Assembly: GCA_017510335.1 (NCBI GenBank)
Contig: JAFWNM010000041.1
Span: 1 to 64,000 of the forward strand
Source: Paracoccaceae bacterium
GTDB lineage: Bacteria; Pseudomonadota; Alphaproteobacteria; Rhodobacterales; Rhodobacteraceae
Length of the DNA: 64,000 nucleotides
Reading direction: 5' to 3'
A program made the position numbers and the translations under genes. Under the pieces are notes generated by a model. That model did no database searches and had not been told where the DNA came from. It was given only the letters and a program-made list of their open reading frames with translations. Shown piece after piece: positions 6,589-23,880 of this stretch (position 1 is the stretch's first letter; every line of letters begins with the position of its first letter).

Positions 6589-7410
6589 TCAGATCACCGC
6601 GTGCCGAACCTTGGCCGAGACCCATTCGCTGATAACCACTGTGCCCAAGATCACCAGAATGATCAGGGACACTTGCGGCCAGGCCAATGTGTTTAGGCTG
6701 GCATTCAGTTGCGCACCAATACCACCGGCCCCGACAAGCCCCAGAATGGCGCTCTCGCGAATGTTGATGTCCCAGCGAAACACACTGATCCCATAGAAGG
6801 CAGGTAACACTTGCGGCACGATGCCATAGGTCAGGATCTGGCCCTGGCTGGCACCTGTCGCGGTAATGGCCTCGACCTGGGAAACGTCGGTTTCCTCGAT
6901 CGCCTCATAAAGCAGCTTGCCTATGAAGCCGATAGAGCGAAGCGCAATAGCCAATATACCCGCAAGGATGCCCGGCCCAAGGATCGAGACCAGCAAAAGC
7001 GCCCAGATCAGCGAATTGATCGAACGCGACGCGACGATGATGAACAAGGCGATTGGCCGCAGGATAAGCCGCGAGGGCGTGGTGTTCGACGCCGCAAGGA
7101 AGGCAAGCGGCACCGCCATCAGAATGCCCAGAAGAGTGCCGAGTGTGGCGATGTTGATTGTGTCCCAAAGCGGCCACCAGAGGCGTTCCATGTAGGACCA
7201 GCGCGGCGGGAAGGCGCGGCTGCCGATATCGGCAGCGGCATTGGGCGCGTCCCAGACAAAGGCCCAGATGGTGCGCTGGGTCATGCGTTCCCAGCACCAG
7301 ACAAATAGCGCGACACAAGCGAGCCAGCCAGCCCAGAGCAAAAGGCGCTTGAGGGGGGGGCGATGCCGCCAGACAGGTGTTTCAGCGCTTGCGATGCTCA
7401 TTTCACCCAC
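6589..7410 (-). CDS. phnE: Phosphonate-type ABC transporter permease PhnE (second)
   Basis: A 273-residue inner-membrane permease of the PhnE family with about six hydrophobic segments. The cytoplasmic ABC-coupling loop reads EAITATGASQGQILTYG (about residues 175-191), followed by the FRWDINIRESAILGLVGAGG block typical of PhnE. Its start overlaps the end of the upstream phnE by 13 bases. Two unequal PhnE subunits are usual in alphaproteobacterial phnCDEE operons, where they form the heteromeric channel for phosphonate, phosphite or phosphate esters. It is the last intact gene of the operon, followed only by the ppk2 remnant. Confidence 0.92.
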   Translation of the reverse strand: MGEMSIASAETPVWRHRPPLKRLLLWAGWLACVALFVWCWERMTQRTIWAFVWDAPNAAADIGSRAFPPRWSYMERLWWPLWDTINIATLGTLLGILMAVPLAFLAASNTTPSRLILRPIALFIIVASRSINSLIWALLLVSILGPGILAGILAIALRSIGFIGKLLYEAIEETDVSQVEAITATGASQGQILTYGIVPQVLPAFYGISVFRWDINIRESAILGLVGAGGIGAQLNASLNTLAWPQVSLIILVILGTVVISEWVSAKVRHAVI

Positions 7411-8201
7411 TTTCGCAAATAGCCCGAGGAATATTCAGCTACCATCACTATGGCGATAATGATCAGCAGGATCGCGCCCGCGCTTGAGTATTCATAGCGC
7501 GACAGCGATGTGTTCAGCGCCGCCCCGATGCCACCGGCACCCACGATTCCGATGACGGCGGATTCGCGGAAGTTGATATCCAGCCGGTAAAGCGACAGCC
7601 CGATCAGACGCGGCATGACCTGCGGCTGGATGGCGTAATTGATCAGTTGCAGCCAGCTGGCCCCGGTCGCGCGGATTGCTTCGGCCTGGGCTTCGTCGAT
7701 ATCCTCGATATCCTCGGCCAGCAGCTTGCCGATGAAGCCGATGGTGGCGAAGGTCAGCGTGAGGAACCCCGCGAAGGTCCCGAAGCCGAACAGCGCCACG
7801 AAGAAAATCGCCACAATGATTTCCTGAAGCGCGCGACTGATGGCAATGATGCTGCGGCAGATCAGATATATCCAGCGCGGTGCCAGATTGCGAGCAGCGC
7901 CCACCCCGATAGGGATCGAGATCAGCACGCCCACCACCGTTGAGGTAAAGGTCATCGTCAGGCTTTCCATCAGCCCGTTGGAAATGTCGCGCCAGCGGGT
8001 TGTGAAATCAGGTTGCAAGAAGCCCGCCACAAAGCGTTGTGCGCGCTCCATTCCCGCAATGATGCGTGCCCAGTTGACCTCGACCGAGCCAATGGCGAGC
8101 ACCAGATAGGCGATTGCACCAACAGCCAGCGCGATTCGCCAGCCCCGTGACTGGATCATCTGCGGCGGTTTGCGCCATGTGGTCGGATAGGCCGTGCTCA
8201 T
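7398..8201 (-). CDS. phnE: Phosphonate-type ABC transporter permease PhnE (first)
   Basis: A 267-residue permease with the PhnE signatures [17 protein letters not shown] and [20 protein letters not shown] and about six membrane segments. ATG 8201 was chosen over the longer frame from 8288 because it overlaps the phnC stop as ATGA, and the extra upstream residues are arginine-rich and read antisense over phnC. It forms the channel together with the second PhnE. Nothing in the gene itself is broken, but without a working PhnC it would have no dedicated ATPase. Confidence 0.92.
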
Positions 8202-9025
8202 AGTGCCCTCAGCATCTTTTCGGCCTGCGCTTTTTCTTCCGCCTCGGCCTCGGCATCCTCGGAAGCACCCTGGCGCATGGCGGTCCAATCCTCTTCGCCG
8301 TAGATTTGAGTCAGAACGCCCTCGGTCAGGCCAGAAGGCGGACCGTCAAACACCATGCGACCCGATTGCAACCCGATGATCCGGTCCGAGAATTGCTGCG
8401 CCAGCACCACATCATGAATATTGATGATCGCAGGCAAATCCCGCTCGCGACAAATCTCGACAATCAAGCGCATGATCTGACGGCTGGTTTTGGGGTCGAG
8501 GCTGGCGGTTGGTTCATCGATCAGCAGAAGTTCAGGGTTCTGCGCCAAGGCCCGTGCGATTCCAACCCGCTGGCGTTGTCAGCCCGACAGCGCATCGGCG
8601 CGCTTGTCAGCATGCGCCATCAGCCCCACACGATCCAGCAGGCGATAGGCACTGGTGATATCAGCGCCGGGATACTGGCGGGTAAAGCTGCGCCAGAAAC
8701 CCACATATCCCAGACGGCCGGACAGCACGTTTTCCATCACTGTCAGGCGCTCGACCAGCGCATATTCCTGAAAAATCATCCCGATCCTGCGGCGTGCGCG
8801 GCGCAGCTCGCGCGTGCGCAGCGCAGGCAGATTGATGTCATTGAGCCAGACCGCCCCGGAACTTGGCTCTACCAGTCTGTTGATACAACGGATCAACGTG
8901 GACTTTCCCGCACCTGACGGTCCGATCAAACCGATCACCTGTCCTTTCGGTGCCTCAAAAGAGACATCCGACAGTGCCTTGTCCCCTGTTTTGTAGGTCT
9001 TTGTCAGACCTTCGATCCTGAGCAT
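8198..9025 (-). pseudogene. phnC: phnC, phosphonate ABC ATPase interrupted by a stop in the signature motif
   Basis: The 275-codon frame is complete except for one in-frame TGA at 8579-8581. Before it come Walker [13 protein letters not shown], the Q-loop IFQEYALVE and ALSG; after it [14 protein letters not shown], Walker [13 protein letters not shown] and the switch His in NIHD. The stop falls exactly on the second Gly of LSGGQ, so a single GGA to TGA change explains it. Both halves stay in one frame with no other damage, so the lesion is recent or a sequencing error. A shine-Dalgarno-like GGGGAA precedes the start at 9025. If real, no full ATPase is made unless the stop is read through. Confidence 0.9.
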
Positions 9026-9048
9026 ATGAGCATTCCCCGAAAAAGCTG

Positions 9049-9076
9049 GGCAGGCAGAACCAAAGCTCTGCCTGCC
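9049..9076 (-). terminator. Intercistronic hairpin between phnD and phnC
   Basis: GGCAGGCAGA (9049-9058) and TCTGCCTGCC (9067-9076) form a perfect 10-bp stem with an 8-base loop, in the 75-base gap between phnD and phnC. There is no U-run. Such structures behind binding-protein genes usually stabilise the upstream message or attenuate downstream genes. Confidence 0.8.
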
Positions 9077-9100
9077 TGAAAGGATTTGGTGCTGAAATCC

Positions 9101-10048
9101 TCAGTTGCAGGTATAGGTCACGCCCATCGCTGCATCGATCTGACGGATCACCGACCAGTTTTCCTGGAATGTGATCGGAATGAACTGGCTCTCGCCTTGC
9201 GCGCCAAACTCACGCTCGAGGCCCGTGCCTTCCCACTCGAAGCTGAAGAACGCATCACGGATTTTTTCCTGCAATTCGGGATGCAGGTTGTAGACCGTGC
9301 CGTAGCCAGACGTCGGGAAGGTGTCGGATTTGTAGATTGTCACCAGATCGTCGCGGCTGACAACACCGCGCGCTTCCATCCGGGTCAGGACCGAATTGGC
9401 AATGGCCGCAGCGTCATAGTCCTGATTGGCGACACCAAGGATCGAGTTGTCATGCCCGCCCGAGAAAGCCGGCGTGTAGTTTTCTTCAACAACCAGACCA
9501 AACTCAGATTCCAGCAATGCCTGTGGGGCCTTAAAGCCAGAGTTTGAAGTTTCCGAGGTGAACGCCAGCTGACGACCATCAAGATCTGCAAGCGCCTCGA
9601 TGCCCGATCCGGGATAGGTAACGATTTCCATCTCGTAGCCGAAGGAACCATCTTCAGCCGCCATCATCGCGAACGGACGGAAGCCTGCACAAGCGACCGC
9701 AATCGGGTTTCCGCCTGTGTTGACAGCGGCAATATGCAATCGGCCTGCACGCATAGCTTCAAGCTGCGCAGCGTTGGACTGAACCGGGAAGAACTGCACG
9801 GGCTTGCTTGTCGCGTCTGACAGATGGGCAATGAATTCGGCCCAAACATCTTCATAAACTGCAGGATCTTCGACCGGCGTGTAGGCAAACACCAAAACCG
9901 GCGGATCAACCCATTCACTCGGGTCGGTGGGAATATCCGCGATCAAGTCGCCATCATTGTCGGTAAAGCGCGGGTCGAGTTGGAATGCACCAGCAGGCAG
10001 CGCCAGCGCAACGCCGAGCGCCACTGTCGAGAGAAGCCTTGCAGTCAT
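9101..10048 (-). CDS. phnD: Phosphonate/phosphite-type ABC substrate-binding protein PhnD
   Basis: A 315-residue periplasmic binding protein with a signal peptide of about 21 residues ending in ALPAGA. The segment TSETSNSGFKAPQALL is the ligand-loop signature of PhnD/PtxB-type proteins. Residues 25-50 carry an aspartate-rich stretch (TDNDGDLIAD, then TDPSEWVDPP) resembling a calcium-binding loop, which I associate with the PhnD subgroup found next to ppk2. The start has AGGGGAAAA eight bases upstream. It leads the phnD-C-E-E-ppk2 operon behind a Pho-box-like repeat. The exact ligand (phosphonate, phosphite or phosphate) cannot be read from sequence. Confidence 0.9.
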   Translation of the reverse strand: MTARLLSTVALGVALALPAGAFQLDPRFTDNDGDLIADIPTDPSEWVDPPVLVFAYTPVEDPAVYEDVWAEFIAHLSDATSKPVQFFPVQSNAAQLEAMRAGRLHIAAVNTGGNPIAVACAGFRPFAMMAAEDGSFGYEMEIVTYPGSGIEALADLDGRQLAFTSETSNSGFKAPQALLESEFGLVVEENYTPAFSGGHDNSILGVANQDYDAAAIANSVLTRMEARGVVSRDDLVTIYKSDTFPTSGYGTVYNLHPELQEKIRDAFFSFEWEGTGLEREFGAQGESQFIPITFQENWSVIRQIDAAMGVTYTCN

Positions 10049-10336: not shown

Positions 10337-11044
10337 TCATCCGCGCCAGCGTGCAACGTAGCTTGTGACCGTCAGGCAGCCCCCGCCTGCGGCAAGGGTG
10401 GCAGCGTTCATCCCGCCGATGCCATGCATGTTGAAGGCAAAGCGGCTTTCACCGCGGATCAGCGTTGGGCTGATCAAACGCGCAGTAAAGGTAACCCGTG
10501 CAAAAGCACCTTCGACTTGCTCGTCCACAACGACCCCGCGCCATGACAGATGCCCGGTTTGTGACCAGCGCACCATGCCACGGGTTTCGGGAAACAGCCT
10601 TTCGGGATGAAAGCGCCCGCCCCAGTTGACGGAGGTGGTGGCACTTTCCAGCCCGCCCATTCCCGTCAAGGCCACCATTGGGCATTGCGAAGTGTCGGTG
10701 ACGACATCGGTGATATGCCAGCTGCCGTCGCGTGGCACGATGTCTTCGAACAGTTGCAATGGGCAATTGCCCTGGCCACCATACAGCACGTCCAGATCGG
10801 CGGGTGCCATTGTGCTCCATCCCATGGTGCCATTGGGCGCACGCACGAGCATCATATCTTCCGCGCCGTCCGGGATTTCAATGGGCAGGGCGGCCGCAAC
10901 TTCGGTCAGGGTCAGGTTCGTGACGCTGCAGGTGCAGCCCGATCCGGTGCAATCGGCAAGCTGGACCTTTTGGGTGCCTTGGGCAAGGGCGGCACCTGCG
11001 GACAGGACAAGGGATGCCATCGCGGCAATGAATTTCAGGGCCAT
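10337..11044 (-). CDS. Exported protein of unknown function, last gene of the VWA operon
   Basis: A 235-residue protein with a clear signal peptide (KFIAAMASLVLSAGAALA, cleavage near residue 21). The mature part has cysteine pairs near the N-terminus (DCTGSGCTCS) and elsewhere, which suggests disulfides in the periplasm, and a beta-rich pattern. I do not recognise the family. It follows the VWA gene by three bases and has its own GGAG site six bases before ATG 11044, so it is almost certainly co-transcribed and probably works with the VWA protein in the envelope. The ending GGCLTVTSYVARWRG shows no anchor. Confidence 0.8.
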   Translation of the reverse strand: MALKFIAAMASLVLSAGAALAQGTQKVQLADCTGSGCTCSVTNLTLTEVAAALPIEIPDGAEDMMLVRAPNGTMGWSTMAPADLDVLYGGQGNCPLQLFEDIVPRDGSWHITDVVTDTSQCPMVALTGMGGLESATTSVNWGGRFHPERLFPETRGMVRWSQTGHLSWRGVVVDEQVEGAFARVTFTARLISPTLIRGESRFAFNMHGIGGMNAATLAAGGGCLTVTSYVARWRG

Positions 11045-11047
11045 GGT

Positions 11048-14000
11048 TTACTCCGATCCGGTTTGCGGCAGCAGGATGTCAAGAAACGTGTCTGCATCCA
11101 TGTCGCCAAGGTCGATCTCGATGAAGTGGGGGGCGGCACCGCTGGTTGCGGCAGGGCGTGCCCGATCGGGCAAAGCCGGTTGGCCTGACGCTGGCAGGAC
11201 CGGGTCACTGCCCGCCTGTTGCACTGCCAAAAGCGTGGTTGGGGCGATGTAGCTGACCGGATAGGGGCAGGAGCCCATGGTGGAACTTTCACCGACGCGG
11301 CATTGTGCGGGGCCCATGTTCAGGATGAGCGCCTCGCAGGGTGACAGGAAACTTGCATCAACGATTGTCGCCCCAGCGGTGTCAAAGCCGATGATTTCCA
11401 GAACCTGCGCGCGCTCCGTCCGCATGATCGGCGTGACCGCCGCACCTTGTGCGTCAACCCCCGTCACCGGGATGGTGACGGTAATGCGCGGACCGGGGGG
11501 CATGGAAAGGTCGGCCCCGATCATGCATCCCGCGCCGAATTGTGTGGTCGCGCGCAAAGTGACTGTGATGTGATCGCGCGCCTTGTCCGCAACAACCTCG
11601 AACCCGGTGGTGGCGCGCAGAATCCCCGCCTTGTCGGTGATGGTGATCATATAGATGCCGGGGGCATCGGGGATTGGCAGCGCCTGATCCTGTGCGTCGA
11701 TCAGTGCGGCAAGACCTGTGGTAAAAACCGCCGTCCCGTCCTGCCCTTCGATCACAAGCTGCCCGTCCAGACCTGCCGGTGCCTCGATCCCGACGGAAAA
11801 GTACCCGCCCGAGCCTGCGACCAGATCCCAATCCGACAGCAGCGCAACACTGACCGAACCTTCGGGCGCCCCGGCGCCCTGTGCCGCATCGGGCGCGACG
11901 GCTTCGAACACTGTCCCGCCGAACATCTCACCGTTGATATCAAGAAAGCGGATTTCATAATAGCCGGGCTTTTCAGGGACTGGCAGCACAGGGTCCGTGC
12001 TGTTCATCAGCTCAGCGCTGGAGATGGAAAAGAGCGCGGGTGCATCGCGGTCGTCATCGTCATGGAGAGCGATAGATCCCTGGAAATCCGAAGGTGCCAC
12101 CAGCGTGACGGGGAAAAATGCGCCCGGCCCGGCAATGACCGGATCATCGGGCAATTCCAATGTCACCTCATCGAAGGCGTAGACAGGGGCCAGCATCACC
12201 TGCTGCACCGTGGTGCCGGGGGTGATGGTGACATTCCGGTTGCGGTATTCCCGAAACAGGGTTTCGGCGCGGATGTCATAGACATTGCCCACACCAAGCG
12301 GATGATCTTTCGCGGCCATCTCGCTGTCATGCAGCTGGCCGTCCTGATAGGCCGCATCCTCGCCCGCAACAAGCTGGATGCGCACCTTGCGCATCTCGGA
12401 TCGGTCCGCGCCTGCAATGGATACGCTGACGGGCCGCGTGTGTGCGCCGGCGGTGGGTTGGCCAAGATGGACCATCGACGCGATCATCCCTGCAACCATC
12501 TGCGCGGTGATATCGGCATCTGCGAAATGGCACAGGCGCCCCAGATCCGGTGTTTCAAGGCAGGTGCCGTTGCTGTCGATCCACTGGCGCGGGTTCAGGC
12601 GCAACTCCTGCCCCTCTGGCCCGAACAGCGACAGGCTGGGCAGGGCCATGTCCGTTGGCGCGGCTGATGCGGTCTGGAATTCGGGGGCGGTCACGCTCCA
12701 GCCCATGGGTAGTGGAATGGTCAGGCCACTGGCAGGATCGGTCCAGGCGCAGATCGATTGCGCACAGGCAAAGACCGCGTCGGACCCGTCGTTCAGCCAG
12801 CCTTGGTCGGCGGGGTCCGGGCCATAGAGCGTCGCGCGCAGTTGTGTGGCGGGCGGAAGTGGCACGGCGTCGGGCCAGAACACGACGGCCAGGCTGTTGG
12901 CGCCGGCGACCAGTGTTCCGGCATAGCCTTCGGCATAGGGCATGACCGACAGCACGAAAGGCGCAGGGTCGATCATCGGCAACGCCATGGTCACGATCAG
13001 CGCGCCGTCTTCCTCTAACACGCTGTCAATTTCACGCTCAAGCAGGACCGTGCCGAAGGCTGCGGGGGCAGGCGTGAAGCGGCCCTGATAGCCGTTGGCG
13101 TCGGCGCGGGTTTCCAATATGATATCCATGATTTTCATCGGATCAATGGGGCTTCCCGGTGGCGCGTCATAGGGCGGCACGGTCAGGATGCGCCACGGCC
13201 CTTGCAGGTCCAGCGCGCCGTGATCCTCGTCGCTGCCTGCGTCGATCTGCACGATGAAATCGTTGGCCTGCCCCGGAAAGATCGTCACATCGGCCGACAG
13301 TGTCACCTCACCGGGTGCGGTGGCGGTGATGCGCCATGTGCCGGGCTCGAAACTGCCGGTGATGACAGGGCCGGTTTGCCCGGACGCCCATGGGCCGGAG
13401 GTCATGTCAGGGTCAAGGGGCACCCCAGACCATGTAACATCGGATTGCGGAAGGTCAGCAGGCAGGCGGAAGGTGGCGGTGACCTGCGCCAGTTCGTCTT
13501 GCGACGCGTCGCCCCGGGTTGCGGCGGCGGCTTGGTTGGCCAGTTCGGCGCTGGTGGTCCGGTCGGTGTCCGCGAACGGGATTCCGACACCGAAGCGGCG
13601 CGAGAACATGATCGCGGTCGCCCCCGCGTTCAGATAGCGCAATTCGTAATCACCGGGCACGCTCGGCACCGTCAGCCTGGTCGTGCCTGTCGTGTGCAAA
13701 GCGTTGGCCCAATCATAACGCTGATGTTCATTCACTGGCTGGTCAAGATCAGCGATCACGATCCGCTCTCCCAGTTGTTCCGGCGCGCGAAAGGTAAACA
13801 GCACGCGGCTGCCCGGCTCGACCGACCCGATTGGGTCAAAACCCATGGCAGGGGCCACCACCTCGACCGGCTGGCGGGCGATGATCCCGTCGCGGGCAGT
13901 GGACAGGATCAGATCATACATCCCCGGGGTTTTCGGTGCGGTGCGGGTGGCGGGGTTGTTGGGGGCTGCCGCCGTCCCCCCGATTGTACGGTAGCTGCTT

Positions 14001-14791
14001 GACGTAGGCGCGCGGCTTTCGCCCTGCGGAACGAAGCCCATGTAATCGACGAAGCGCGCCTCGCCGTTCCAGCGAATGCGATAATCGAAGCCCGCCTCTG
14101 CCTTGTCGCCGATGTCGAAGGCGGCGGCGCGGGCAGGTTGTTCAGGTTCAGGCTCTGGTTCAGGTTCAGCTTCGGGTGCCATGCTCACCTGTTGCAACGC
14201 TTCGGCCAGTTCGGCGCCGGAATTGGTCTGGAATAGCATCCCCCCGGTCTGGTCGGTGATACAGGACAGGGCCGCGACCTCGACCGCACTCAGGCCAAAG
14301 CCCACGACATGGGCGCGGATGTCGATGCCTTCGGCGGCAAGGCTGGCGGCCAGCGCGCAGGGGTCGCCCTCGCAGGTTTCCAGCCCGTCGGTCACAAGGA
14401 TGATATCGGCGGCTTCAGCGGTGGGCGGGATTTGGTCGCGCGCGCGCGCAAGGCTGTCGGTCAGCGGGGTCATGCCCCGCGGCATCAGCGCGCGCAGGCG
14501 GCTTTCCAGCGCGCCCGGCGCGGTCTGGCCCATGGGCGCGATGACCTCTATGTCGCGGCAATCGCCGCGCCGGTTGTGGCCATAGGCGATGACCGACAAG
14601 GGCACCGCGCCGTCGCGGCTGGCGAAATAGTCACCCATCACGTCGCGCGCGACCTCGATCCGGGTCAGGTCGCCCTCGACCCGGTTCCACATCGAGCCGG
14701 AGGCATCGAACACCAGCACCGAGACGCGTTCGGCCATTGCTGGCGCGGCCGAGATCATCAGGGCGGCAAGCGCGGGGAAAATTCGGGTCAT
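11048..14791 (-). CDS. Large exported von Willebrand factor A protein with repeated beta modules
   Basis: A 1247-residue secreted or periplasmic protein. A signal peptide (residues 1-20, ending AAPAMA) is followed at once by a VWA domain with a full metal-ion-dependent adhesion site: DASGS at 29-33, the Thr of GMTPLTDS near 108-111, and TDG at 134-136. A PEPEPEPEQP linker (about 209-219) leads into a long series of beta-sandwich-like modules; a PGxY motif recurs at about 289, 379, 942 and 1044, each time near the end of a module. No C-terminal anchor is seen. The start at 14791 overlaps the DUF3137 gene as ATGA and is preferred over an in-frame extension to 14980. Function is unknown; adhesion or envelope protein binding is a guess. 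Confidence 0.88.
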   Translation of the reverse strand: MTRIFPALAALMISAAPAMAERVSVLVFDASGSMWNRVEGDLTRIEVARDVMGDYFASRDGAVPLSVIAYGHNRRGDCRDIEVIAPMGQTAPGALESRLRALMPRGMTPLTDSLARARDQIPPTAEAADIILVTDGLETCEGDPCALAASLAAEGIDIRAHVVGFGLSAVEVAALSCITDQTGGMLFQTNSGAELAEALQQVSMAPEAEPEPEPEPEQPARAAAFDIGDKAEAGFDYRIRWNGEARFVDYMGFVPQGESRAPTSSSYRTIGGTAAAPNNPATRTAPKTPGMYDLILSTARDGIIARQPVEVVAPAMGFDPIGSVEPGSRVLFTFRAPEQLGERIVIADLDQPVNEHQRYDWANALHTTGTTRLTVPSVPGDYELRYLNAGATAIMFSRRFGVGIPFADTDRTTSAELANQAAAATRGDASQDELAQVTATFRLPADLPQSDVTWSGVPLDPDMTSGPWASGQTGPVITGSFEPGTWRITATAPGEVTLSADVTIFPGQANDFIVQIDAGSDEDHGALDLQGPWRILTVPPYDAPPGSPIDPMKIMDIILETRADANGYQGRFTPAPAAFGTVLLEREIDSVLEEDGALIVTMALPMIDPAPFVLSVMPYAEGYAGTLVAGANSLAVVFWPDAVPLPPATQLRATLYGPDPADQGWLNDGSDAVFACAQSICAWTDPASGLTIPLPMGWSVTAPEFQTASAAPTDMALPSLSLFGPEGQELRLNPRQWIDSNGTCLETPDLGRLCHFADADITAQMVAGMIASMVHLGQPTAGAHTRPVSVSIAGADRSEMRKVRIQLVAGEDAAYQDGQLHDSEMAAKDHPLGVGNVYDIRAETLFREYRNRNVTITPGTTVQQVMLAPVYAFDEVTLELPDDPVIAGPGAFFPVTLVAPSDFQGSIALHDDDDRDAPALFSISSAELMNSTDPVLPVPEKPGYYEIRFLDINGEMFGGTVFEAVAPDAAQGAGAPEGSVSVALLSDWDLVAGSGGYFSVGIEAPAGLDGQLVIEGQDGTAVFTTGLAALIDAQDQALPIPDAPGIYMITITDKAGILRATTGFEVVADKARDHITVTLRATTQFGAGCMIGADLSMPPGPRITVTIPVTGVDAQGAAVTPIMRTERAQVLEIIGFDTAGATIVDASFLSPCEALILNMGPAQCRVGESSTMGSCPYPVSYIAPTTLLAVQQAGSDPVLPASGQPALPDRARPAATSGAAPHFIEIDLGDMDADTFLDILLPQTGSE

Positions 14792-15864
14792 GCGATATCT
14801 CCAAAAGGCAAGGAAAGGGCGGCAGTCAGATAACCGTCCAGCACGGCCAGATCGGCGGCAAAGGCGGGGATCAGCGTGTCGGGGTCCAGCGGCAGCCAGA
14901 AGGCCGGCGGCTCGAACGCGCCGTCGAACATGGCAAGTGGCGTCAGCACCACCAACTGCCCGGGCAGGATCACGACCCATGGCCGCAGGCCTTTGCCCGG
15001 CGCGACCTCGGCCAGGCCGTGTTTGGCAGAACGCGCGTGCCGTTCCAGACCGGCAAAACCCGCCCGCAAGGCAGGTGTCAGCGGCGCGGGATCCCCATAG
15101 ACCGTATAAAGCGCGTCAAAGGTCTTGTCGCCGGTTTGCACCGTTTTCAGGCCGTGCGACAGCTTCGGCCCATGCCGGACATTCCAGCTGGCATCGGTGG
15201 GCGTAACGACCGTGACGCCCGTGCGTGCTGCTGTTTCTGGCAGGGAGACCTGAACCATGACAACGCTCAGGCCCTTGTCGTGCTTTTCCGTGTAGCGCCT
15301 GTCCTCGCCGAACATCAGCCCGACGCGTGTTACGCCCACGACGCGGCCCGCGCGCTCGCCTGTCAGGCGCAGATCGACGATTACCTTGCGGACCTGCTGC
15401 ACCAGCCTCAGCCCGGCAAACCATTCGCGCGGAATATCGGGCGCAGGATCCGGGATCAGGTCCGACATTTGCCCGGCGACAGCCGCGACGATTTGCCTGC
15501 GGGTTTCTGCGCGGGGGCCATCCTCGGCCTTGGCCATCACAAGGATGACGACGCTTACAACGGCAAGCGCCATCAGCGCCAGACCGCCAAGGAAAGAGCC
15601 GCCGATCCCCCAGCCGACCACAAGGGCCACCACCGCAGCGCCACCGCCATAGAGCTTCAGGGCGCGGTCGATCTGGTCGACATGGACCGTCCTGTCACGG
15701 TTCAGTCCCTGCAGGACAGGCGCCAGCCGGGCAACGATTGCACTGTGGTCTGCGGGCGGCAAGGCGGGTGGCGCGGGACGAGGCATGGCCGATGGGCCGA
15801 ACAAAACGCCCTTGCTGCCCGGGCTGATCCGGCCCAGCAGGCGCACGGGGCTGAACCCGCTCAT
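14788..15864 (-). CDS. DUF3137-domain membrane protein
   Basis: A 358-residue protein. Two adjacent hydrophobic segments (about residues 75-115: GGGAAVVALVVGWGIGG and GLALMALAVVSVVILVM) are followed by a long soluble domain containing LMFGEDRRYTEKHDKG and VYGDPAPLTPALRAGF, typical of DUF3137 proteins. Such proteins are membrane-bound and of unknown function. It is the first gene of the three-gene operon with the VWA protein and the 235-residue exported protein, with ATGA overlap to the VWA gene. The start at 15864 is one of two ATG codons six codons apart and is not certain. Confidence 0.8.
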   Translation of the reverse strand: MSGFSPVRLLGRISPGSKGVLFGPSAMPRPAPPALPPADHSAIVARLAPVLQGLNRDRTVHVDQIDRALKLYGGGAAVVALVVGWGIGGSFLGGLALMALAVVSVVILVMAKAEDGPRAETRRQIVAAVAGQMSDLIPDPAPDIPREWFAGLRLVQQVRKVIVDLRLTGERAGRVVGVTRVGLMFGEDRRYTEKHDKGLSVVMVQVSLPETAARTGVTVVTPTDASWNVRHGPKLSHGLKTVQTGDKTFDALYTVYGDPAPLTPALRAGFAGLERHARSAKHGLAEVAPGKGLRPWVVILPGQLVVLTPLAMFDGAFEPPAFWLPLDPDTLIPAFAADLAVLDGYLTAALSLPFGDIA

Positions 15865-16321
15865 CGGGCGGCCTTGGGCCATGGCGGTGCGGACATGGCC
15901 GCCAGCTCATACCCCTGGGACCGCCAGCGCCACAAGACCGCGAAGCCAACCCTACAGTTGACACGCGTTTGGACGGAAGCAACCACCGGACAGTCCGTCA
16001 TGCAAGCGCATGCCACCAATGACCGAAGAATGCCTGACCAAACAGACCCGATACGCCCAGATTCATATCCGATCATGCCCTTTCCCTGACAGTTACCAAA
16101 GGTTAACAATATGTCCGAAGCGTCCTGACCAAAGGGACGACACCAAGGATGGTGCCAACCCTCTCAATCGAACCAAGGCCCGTCCAAGGCATGGCCCTGT
16201 ATCAAGCCTTTGTAGACGCAGAGCGATCAGCATGAGAATATAAGGAATTCCATATAGGGGTGCCGCCGGCATTTTTGCCCCGCAGGGTTTCGAGCTTGGT
16301 TTTTTGAATTGGAGAACAAGT

Positions 16322-17044
16322 ATGCTGGACAATTTCTCTGAAGAACTTTCCTCTATCTGCGCCACAAACGATCCTGGCGCCGCAGATCGGGTTTGGGAGG
16401 TCACGGCGGCATTTTTTGCCCGGAACGGATTTGACAGGCTGATCCATATCGACACCGGCCCCGGACATTTTGCGCTGCAAACCACCCTGCCGGATGCCTG
16501 GGTCGCCCGATATAAAGAGCGTGGCTATGCCGCGATTGACCCGTTTCTGAGCCATTGTTGTGTCACCTTTCGCCCGATCAGCACGGGCATCGCCTATGCC
16601 GACCTGCATCAAGGGCTGTCGGTCGCGCAGATGACCCTGATCGACGAGGCGTCGAGTTTTGGCATCAATGCCGGGTTTTCCTCGACCATCCGGCTGAAGG
16701 GGGATCGGGGCATTGCGGGGTGGAACATCGGATCCTCGCTGTCGCGTCAGGAGGTGGACGCCCTGCGGCTGCATTCCGAAGACCGGCTTCGTCTTGCCGC
16801 GCAGCACGCGCATGAGGCGCTGGATCGGGCCCGGCGCCAAACCTCGGCGCGGCTTGCACCGCGCGAGGTCCAATGCCTGCGATTTCTTGCACAGGGCTAT
16901 CGCACCAAGGACATTGCGCGCGCGCTTGATCTCAGCTCTGCCGCGATAGAGCTCTATCTGCGTAACGCGCGCCGCAAGTTGGGGGCATTGACACGCGAAC
17001 AGGCCATCGCGATCGCGACAGCGCAGGGGATTATCGCCCCCTGA
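16322..17044 (+). CDS. LuxR-family regulator with autoinducer-binding domain
   Basis: A 240-residue transcription factor. Residues 15-160 form an acyl-homoserine-lactone-binding-type domain with WVARYKERGYAAIDPF, matching the conserved W, Y and DP positions; the further Trp usually found about 15 residues on is replaced by Tyr in STGIAYADL. Residues 175-238 are a LuxR/GerE helix-turn-helix (LAPREVQCLRFLAQGYRTKD). GGAGA lies six bases upstream of ATG 16322. No luxI-type synthase is in the window, so it is probably a solo regulator responding to another cell's signal or a different ligand. Target genes are unknown; the nearest are an IS66 remnant and a chemoreceptor. Confidence 0.88.
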   Translation: MLDNFSEELSSICATNDPGAADRVWEVTAAFFARNGFDRLIHIDTGPGHFALQTTLPDAWVARYKERGYAAIDPFLSHCCVTFRPISTGIAYADLHQGLSVAQMTLIDEASSFGINAGFSSTIRLKGDRGIAGWNIGSSLSRQEVDALRLHSEDRLRLAAQHAHEALDRARRQTSARLAPREVQCLRFLAQGYRTKDIARALDLSSAAIELYLRNARRKLGALTREQAIAIATAQGIIAP

Positions 17045-23361: not shown

Positions 23362-23880
23362 TCAGAAAAACCGGATCCCGGCGATGGCGATATCCGCGTC
23401 AAACGCCCGACCGATGGCCACGATGCCGATCCGGCGCAACTGTGACAGGTCAAGCGCAGTTTCGATCCTGTGCGCGGTGAAATCGGTGAAGGGAAGCCGG
23501 ATGCGGTGCCAATCTGGTGTCGCCCGGAAGCTCGCGCGGTAGGATTGCCATGGCCGCGTCACATCGCGTGTGCGCAGGTGAAGATTGTAGTCCTCATCAT
23601 TGCCGGTAACGTCCATCTCGATCCCGGCCCAAGCCCGCGCATCGACCGTGCCGCCGCGCGGATCAAGGTCGAGGGCGATCTGGATGAACCCGCCGTTATT
23701 TTCCAAACTGACCTCTCCCTGCATGCGCAGGGCAGGGCGGTCACGGACCACCTCTCGGGTCATCACCCCGCGAGAGACACCGCCCATGACGCGGTCCGAC
23801 ACCAACTCCCAAACGGCCCCGTTCGCCGCGCGCGGATGAGGCGCGGAAAGGTCATCGATCACGGTGTCAGGGGATGTCAT
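23362..23880 (-). CDS. CIA30-family protein
   Basis: A 172-residue protein matching the CIA30 (complex I intermediate-associated protein 30) beta-sandwich: VWELVSDRVMGGVSRG (about 23-38), GEVSLENNGGFIQIALDL (about 55-72), and RPWQSYRASFRATPDWH (about 108-124). In mitochondria CIA30 assists complex I assembly; in bacteria the role of stand-alone copies is unclear, and a carbohydrate-binding-like fold has been noted. There is no signal peptide. It is convergent with the TRAP permease. The final codons (ADIAIAGIRFF) have a near-identical DNA copy at 19801-19830. Confidence 0.85.
   Translation of the reverse strand: MTSPDTVIDDLSAPHPRAANGAVWELVSDRVMGGVSRGVMTREVVRDRPALRMQGEVSLENNGGFIQIALDLDPRGGTVDARAWAGIEMDVTGNDEDYNLHLRTRDVTRPWQSYRASFRATPDWHRIRLPFTDFTAHRIETALDLSQLRRIGIVAIGRAFDADIAIAGIRFF

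Follow-up and report, generated by a model that had tools for sequence, protein, structure and literature searches.

The described systems closest to the locus considered here are the DUF3137 family (PF11335), which has no known function, the exported proteins of Rhodobacteraceae that combine a VWA domain with beta repeats, the mycobacterial MmpL3 accessory protein TtfA and the LuxR solos. The locus itself is an operon of three consecutive minus-strand genes, P0001, P0002 and P0003, at positions 10337–15864 of a 64,000-nucleotide stretch from a Paracoccaceae bacterium (the whole of this stretch is called the window). The genes are joined by a 4-bp overlap and then a 3-bp gap, a tight coupling already recognized in the original prediction, which saw in the products an envelope machine made of a DUF3137 membrane protein, a VWA scaffold and a small partner, and knew of no described system of this composition. 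Likewise, no published description of the operon was found among the literature matches listed, most subscription papers lying outside the search. The pairing of the VWA protein with P0003 stands, on co-occurrence and on fusions in two genera. A place for P0001 in a direct three-part complex is unlikely without a further membrane protein, since a DUF3137 protein is present in only 5 of the 11 loci that combine the CW domain of P0002 with P0003, and its globular domain is probably cytoplasmic. We tentatively propose, with somewhat less than even confidence, that P0002 and P0003 form a periplasmic or surface-exposed binding complex, probably under a neighbouring LuxR-type regulator.

This proposal is drawn from sequence: the VWA metal residues of P0002 are complete, P0002 and P0003 start like exported proteins, and their genes are neighbours that are elsewhere fused. 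A VWA metal site is marked by a DxSxS motif together with a threonine and an aspartate. All these residues are present in P0002 (Table 1), as had been predicted for this exported protein of 1247 residues, and are matched in L067, L068, L069, L070 and L032; the VWA fold is seen on a model of the Szabonella homologue. That model, of a VWA fusion, has a predicted template-modelling score (pTM) of 0.27, too poor for the folds of CW, LIP and P0003, and the fold search listed VWA-type rows only. Pfam gave no match for P0001, P0002 or P0003 up to an E-value (E) of 10; the L069 homologue of P0002 matches VWA_2 at 1e-7, above the cut-off. With six cysteines in 235 residues (10337–11044), a signal-peptide-like start and no Pfam match, P0003 agrees with its earlier description as a cysteine-rich exported protein of no known family, and its profile found no PDB sequence match at E up to 1. 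The signal-peptide-like starts of both proteins were judged by eye, not by a predictor.

A scan of genome contigs with an alignment of the P0001 pair revealed five other loci: in a Loktanella metagenome-assembled genome (MAG; L067), in Szabonella alba (L068), in two Pararhodobacter species (L069 and L070) and in a Tabrizicola MAG (L071). A P0002 homologue follows P0001 in four of them, every junction being a 4-bp overlap, and across these four P0001 identity is 39–52%. P0003 comes next in three; in the fourth, Szabonella, it is fused to the VWA protein, whose C-terminus matches P0003 residues 104–204. A second fusion, of 1001 residues, occurs in G319 (L148) and matches only the C-terminal half of P0003. 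The three families therefore occur together outside this genome, which answers the objection, foreseen in the original prediction, that they might not. With the window genome counted, P0001 was found in 2 of 295 family genomes, and P0003 in 7 of 295 by single sequence and in 23 of 394 by profile, three of the latter being doubtful.

Neighbourhoods were read around 40 VWA hits, five VWA hits in congeners, six P0003 or P0001 hits, 15 more P0003 hits and the five loci of the P0001 scan, mostly over several kb per side and less at contig ends, and were scored with hidden Markov models (HMMs) of the operon parts. After removal of a duplicate (L027), 58 loci have a VWA-type open reading frame (ORF): 11 carry CW and P0003, none CW alone, three P0003 alone (L102, L153 and L156) and 44 neither. 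The CW score of L156 was 3e-4 in a smaller set of loci and below threshold in the set of 58. The LIP HMM additionally detects L150. In L029, from G327, an OmpA domain (above cut-off) and a PAN-like domain (below cut-off) replace the VWA domain, and CW, LIP and an adjoining P0003 are kept; the locus was counted as VWA-type only via its beta modules. Its OmpA-PAN-beta-CW-LIP protein followed by P0003 (L029:4815-8236) thus presents a swapped recognition part on a constant C-terminal end. That VWA proteins are fused to P0003 in places, and that CW goes with P0003, suggests that P0003 and the C-terminal part of P0002 work as a pair, with recognition falling to the VWA domain. Judged by gene content, the conserved unit is the C-terminal cysteine domain CW together with P0003, with the DUF3137 protein added in one lineage.

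An HMM of the C-terminal tails of four P0002 proteins finds those four alone among 60 C-termini, the next best scoring 3.0 bits, and does not support the tail-like ends noticed by eye in L032, L150, L152 and L029. Five operons, that of the window included, combine P0001 with a VWA gene; the tail is present in the four where P0003 is a separate gene, and the fused operon has neither the tail nor the N-terminal half of P0003. Docking of the tail onto this half in every VWA and P0003 pair was considered and rejected: L151 and L156 have a downstream P0003 and no visible tail. Stand-alone proteins of the P0003 C-terminal domain are encoded in two other places, in two genera (L154:7174-7650 and L155:6905-7681), each beside a gene that we take to be cysteine desulfurase-like.

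Beyond the interval first considered, a divergent LuxR-type gene and a palindrome appear to belong to the system. The regulator matches Autoind_bind (2.4e-21) and GerE (3.4e-14), both above cut-off, and is thus an autoinducer-type regulator; in having these two domains it resembles the LuxR solos (PMC4338825, PMC10134790). A LuxI search of the window genome was empty (0/1), as was its control (0/14). Relatives of the regulator gene lie divergently beside L067, L032, L150, L152 and L156, so that a divergent LuxR gene accompanies 6 of the 14 P0003-linked VWA loci versus 0 of the 44 others; the LuxR model had been built from three of these six. In L032 and L150 the intergenic region contains ATAAGGATTTCCTTAT, the counterpart of ATAAGGAATTCCATAT in the window. 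The window palindrome is the sole site within two mismatches of ATAAGGANNTCCTTAT, such sites averaging 0.03 in shuffled sequences (3 of 100 with a match), and the pattern ATAAGGA-NN-TCC-N-TAT was found nowhere else in the loci then read, window copies excepted. An equally spaced but different dyad is present in L067, and none was found at threshold in L152 and L156. The palindrome may well be bound by the regulator.

As to P0001, PF11335 (cut-off 26.1 bits) matches none of the six members of its family up to E 10, and a PF11335 search of the window genome was empty (0/1), as were its controls. In the absence of a Pfam match the DUF3137 label depends on remote comparison. In 142 genomes of the same class, PF11335 has matches in 10, at 12 places in all; 11 of these places served as the DUF3137 reference (L081, below cut-off, was omitted). 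Compared by hhalign with P0001 and its five homologues, these 11 members gave 98.4% (E 5e-15) over 282 columns, transmembrane (TM) region included; the C-terminal domains alone gave 95.5%, where none of 30 column shuffles exceeded 1.8%. With P0001, five other profiles from the study all scored below 1%. An HMM of the 11 members finds P0001 at 30 bits; among 2165 ORFs, the best one taken as unrelated reaches 7 bits. Set aside from this ranking were L081 (14 bits), in L075 a further ORF next to the DUF3137 gene (36 bits, without a match in Pfam) and, in L056, the DUF3137 gene itself (245 bits). P0001 is thus homologous to DUF3137 over its full length, both TM spans included, and its identification as a two-span DUF3137 protein is upheld for a divergent member below Pfam detection. 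It differs from the family in its partner, a VWA gene; LemA lies beside 2 of the 12 canonical loci (three neighbours tested with Pfam). In Tabrizicola, the P0001 homologue directly follows a small gene with a signal-peptide-like stretch (L071:7989-9038).

The globular domain of P0001 is probably cytoplasmic and, judging by its model, may have a TtfA-like fold. TtfA (PDB 6t84) differs in having one predicted TM span, and shares 8% identity and no sequence-profile link with P0001. The translocon chains 7tm3_4, 9i78_4 and 6w6l_7, which we take to be CCDC47, are eukaryotic, and their level of match to P0001 may mean only a common arrangement. CCDC47 is stated to be present in 9I78, the passages concerned giving no chain letter (PMC12572126).

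In the proposed binding complex, the VWA domain would hold an acidic ligand via a divalent metal, most likely another envelope or surface protein or polymer, the beta modules of P0002 would act as a spacer, and P0003 would cap or complete the C-terminal end of P0002, from the CW domain on. P0001, in the inner membrane with its possibly TtfA-like domain presumably in the cytoplasm, would probably attach to an inner-membrane machine or tend a membrane partner, for example the multi-span protein encoded before P0001 in Loktanella, rather than P0002 or P0003 itself. If P0002 and P0003 are exported and the P0001 domain is cytosolic, contact of P0001 with the others would be limited to a periplasmic turn of few residues. 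A machine in which all three touch directly is thus unlikely without a further membrane protein, for which the multi-span protein MEM333 is a candidate where present. If right, the proposal makes the control of an envelope binding complex by a LuxR-type regulator in Rhodobacteraceae directly testable, offers a functional hypothesis for DUF3137 with a possible fold and topology, and links the uncharacterized CW, LIP and P0003 to a quorum-sensing-type regulator. A wider version is possible and clearly more doubtful: a constant end (CW and P0003, split or fused) would bear a recognition part that can be swapped (VWA; in G327, OmpA/PAN) and be switched by a dedicated LuxR-type regulator via an ATAAGGA-NN-TCCTTAT operator; one lineage would have acquired DUF3137, itself a bacterial branch of a TtfA/CCDC47-like fold whose members serve as cytosolic adaptors for machines of transport or insertion in the inner membrane.

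Several points weigh against these proposals. Metal binding, complex formation, regulation and location are predictions. The Tabrizicola locus has neither a VWA gene nor P0003, and P0001 is missing from 6 of the 11 CW and P0003 loci. For the CW model, 7 of these 11 had supplied the sequences, which leaves L148, L150, L151 and L152 as independent cases; 13 of the 58 VWA-type loci were collected via P0003 or P0001 and 45 via the VWA domain, and CW is found in none of these 45, P0003 in one (L102). A strict partnership of P0003 with VWA was rejected: among 26 loci with a P0003 match (L027 again excluded), a VWA-type gene is present in 14 and lacking in 12, L160–L162 among the 12 looking like signal-peptide matches. 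The palindrome in its window form is absent from L067, L152 and L156. For the fold of P0001, the best PDB match in Foldseek has an E of 0.074, TtfA is absent among the 50 matches listed, and sequence profiles do not reach TtfA up to E 10.

A rather unlikely alternative, and the strongest of the rivals, is that P0002 is a surface or biofilm adhesin of VWA and beta-repeat type, exported past the outer membrane, with P0003 as its chaperone or cap and P0001 serving export. The architecture and large size of P0002 fit this, as does the linkage to a LuxR-type gene, and VWA domains are common in the family (114 of 295 genomes at E up to 1e-10, window genome counted), in open frames of very different length. 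However, no outer-membrane secretion gene or anchoring signal was noticed beside P0002, no systematic search having been made. The VWA proteins of the 44 loci read without P0003 differ from P0002 in having no CW.

Less probable still is an inner-membrane exporter that has P0001 as accessory and P0002 and P0003 as periplasmic parts, the operon moving or inserting an envelope component. MEM333 accompanies 2 of the 11 CW and P0003 loci, its gene lying just before P0001 in Loktanella, and in G308 (L101:3422-8343) the genes for MEM333, an SH3-type exported protein, a canonical DUF3137 protein and a VWA protein stand in a row. However, the operon contains no exporter gene, no homologue of the Loktanella protein was detected in the window genome by a search that had no positive control, a shared fold does not show a shared function, and TtfA is not reached at sequence level. 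At L092:5312-6267 and at L096:7479-8455 the MEM333 match is divided between two ORFs that overlap, which may reflect gene breakage or errors in the sequence.

Mere co-transcription, with P0001 of unrelated membrane function and inherited with the VWA–P0003 pair, seems improbable. It would agree with the loci that lack P0001 and with the presence of a VWA gene near only 2 of the 29 other DUF3137-type loci read in the family; the 4-bp overlap kept in four loci despite the divergence of P0001 speaks against it, as does the canonical DUF3137 gene of G308, which directly precedes and adjoins the VWA gene. DUF3137 as a general VWA partner was also rejected: across 30 family loci (L167–L196; 32 of 394 family genomes matched, flanks of ~1.5 kb read) a VWA gene lies within the flank in three, one being the window. 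Four congeners with a DUF3137-like gene (L163–L166; 5 of 38 genomes with that of the window) have no VWA gene within the flank read. Two DUF3137-type ORFs stand side by side in L184 and L191, and in two congeners the DUF3137-like gene follows one for a large protein (L164:14-2559, L166:1132-3448), that of L164 carrying HEFGHAFGLSH, presumably a metalloprotease-like motif. Least probable is that P0002 acts like the VWA partners of MoxR-type ATPases (such as NorD or BatA) and helps an envelope enzyme to mature. NCBIfam gave P0002 weak VWA matches only, of which that to BatA (E 0.00058) speaks for this reading; against it, the BatA score of 19 is far below the cut-off of 380, and no MoxR ATPase gene was noticed in the operon, no MoxR model having been run.

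Table 1. Coordinates in the window of the operon, its protein regions and the adjoining regulatory features (aa, amino acids)
Feature	Positions	Strand	Details
P0001, divergent DUF3137 membrane protein	14788..15864	-	358 aa; two TM spans within residues 69-115, then globular domain
P0002, putatively exported VWA protein	11048..14791	-	1247 aa; signal-peptide-like start, VWA, beta modules, LIP, CW, C-terminal tail
VWA domain of P0002	14177..14728	-	about aa 22-205; metal-site residues D29/S31/S33, T108, D135
LIP beta-rich region of P0002	12866..13213	-	aa 527-642; alignment with six homologues chosen by eye
CW four-cysteine domain of P0002	12461..12772	-	aa 674-777; only in loci also having P0003
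C-terminal tail of P0002	11051..11131	-	aa 1221-1247; alike in four operons with P0001 and a separate P0003 gene
P0003, N-terminal half	10736..11044	-	aa 1-103; signal-peptide-like start; C32, C37, C39, C94; unmatched in both fusions
P0003, C-terminal half	10337..10735	-	aa 104-235; C121, C223; portion fused to VWA protein elsewhere
Palindrome, candidate operator	16240..16255		ATAAGGAATTCCATAT; ATAAGGATTTCCTTAT in L032, L150
LuxR-type regulator	16304..17044	+	246 aa; autoinducer-binding and GerE domains; divergent from operon

With 64.5% G+C, the operon sits on the peak of the window, whose mean is 58.9%; of 585 segments of equal size only 2 exceed it, and the top one begins at 10501. P0002 was matched in 6 of 38 genus genomes, at full length only in that of the window. 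The G+C peak and the lack of a full-length P0002 match in the 37 congeners searched suggest that the operon was gained horizontally from a G+C-richer relative. PADLOC found no defence-system match, tblastn of P0001 against 72,556 plasmid records no match, and the best hit in a viral fold library had an E of 0.048. The one tRNA of the window, at 23727, is away from the operon. Downstream of P0003, at 6589-10048, lies an ABC transporter-like set of two permeases, an ATPase and a binding protein, presumably of phosphonate type.
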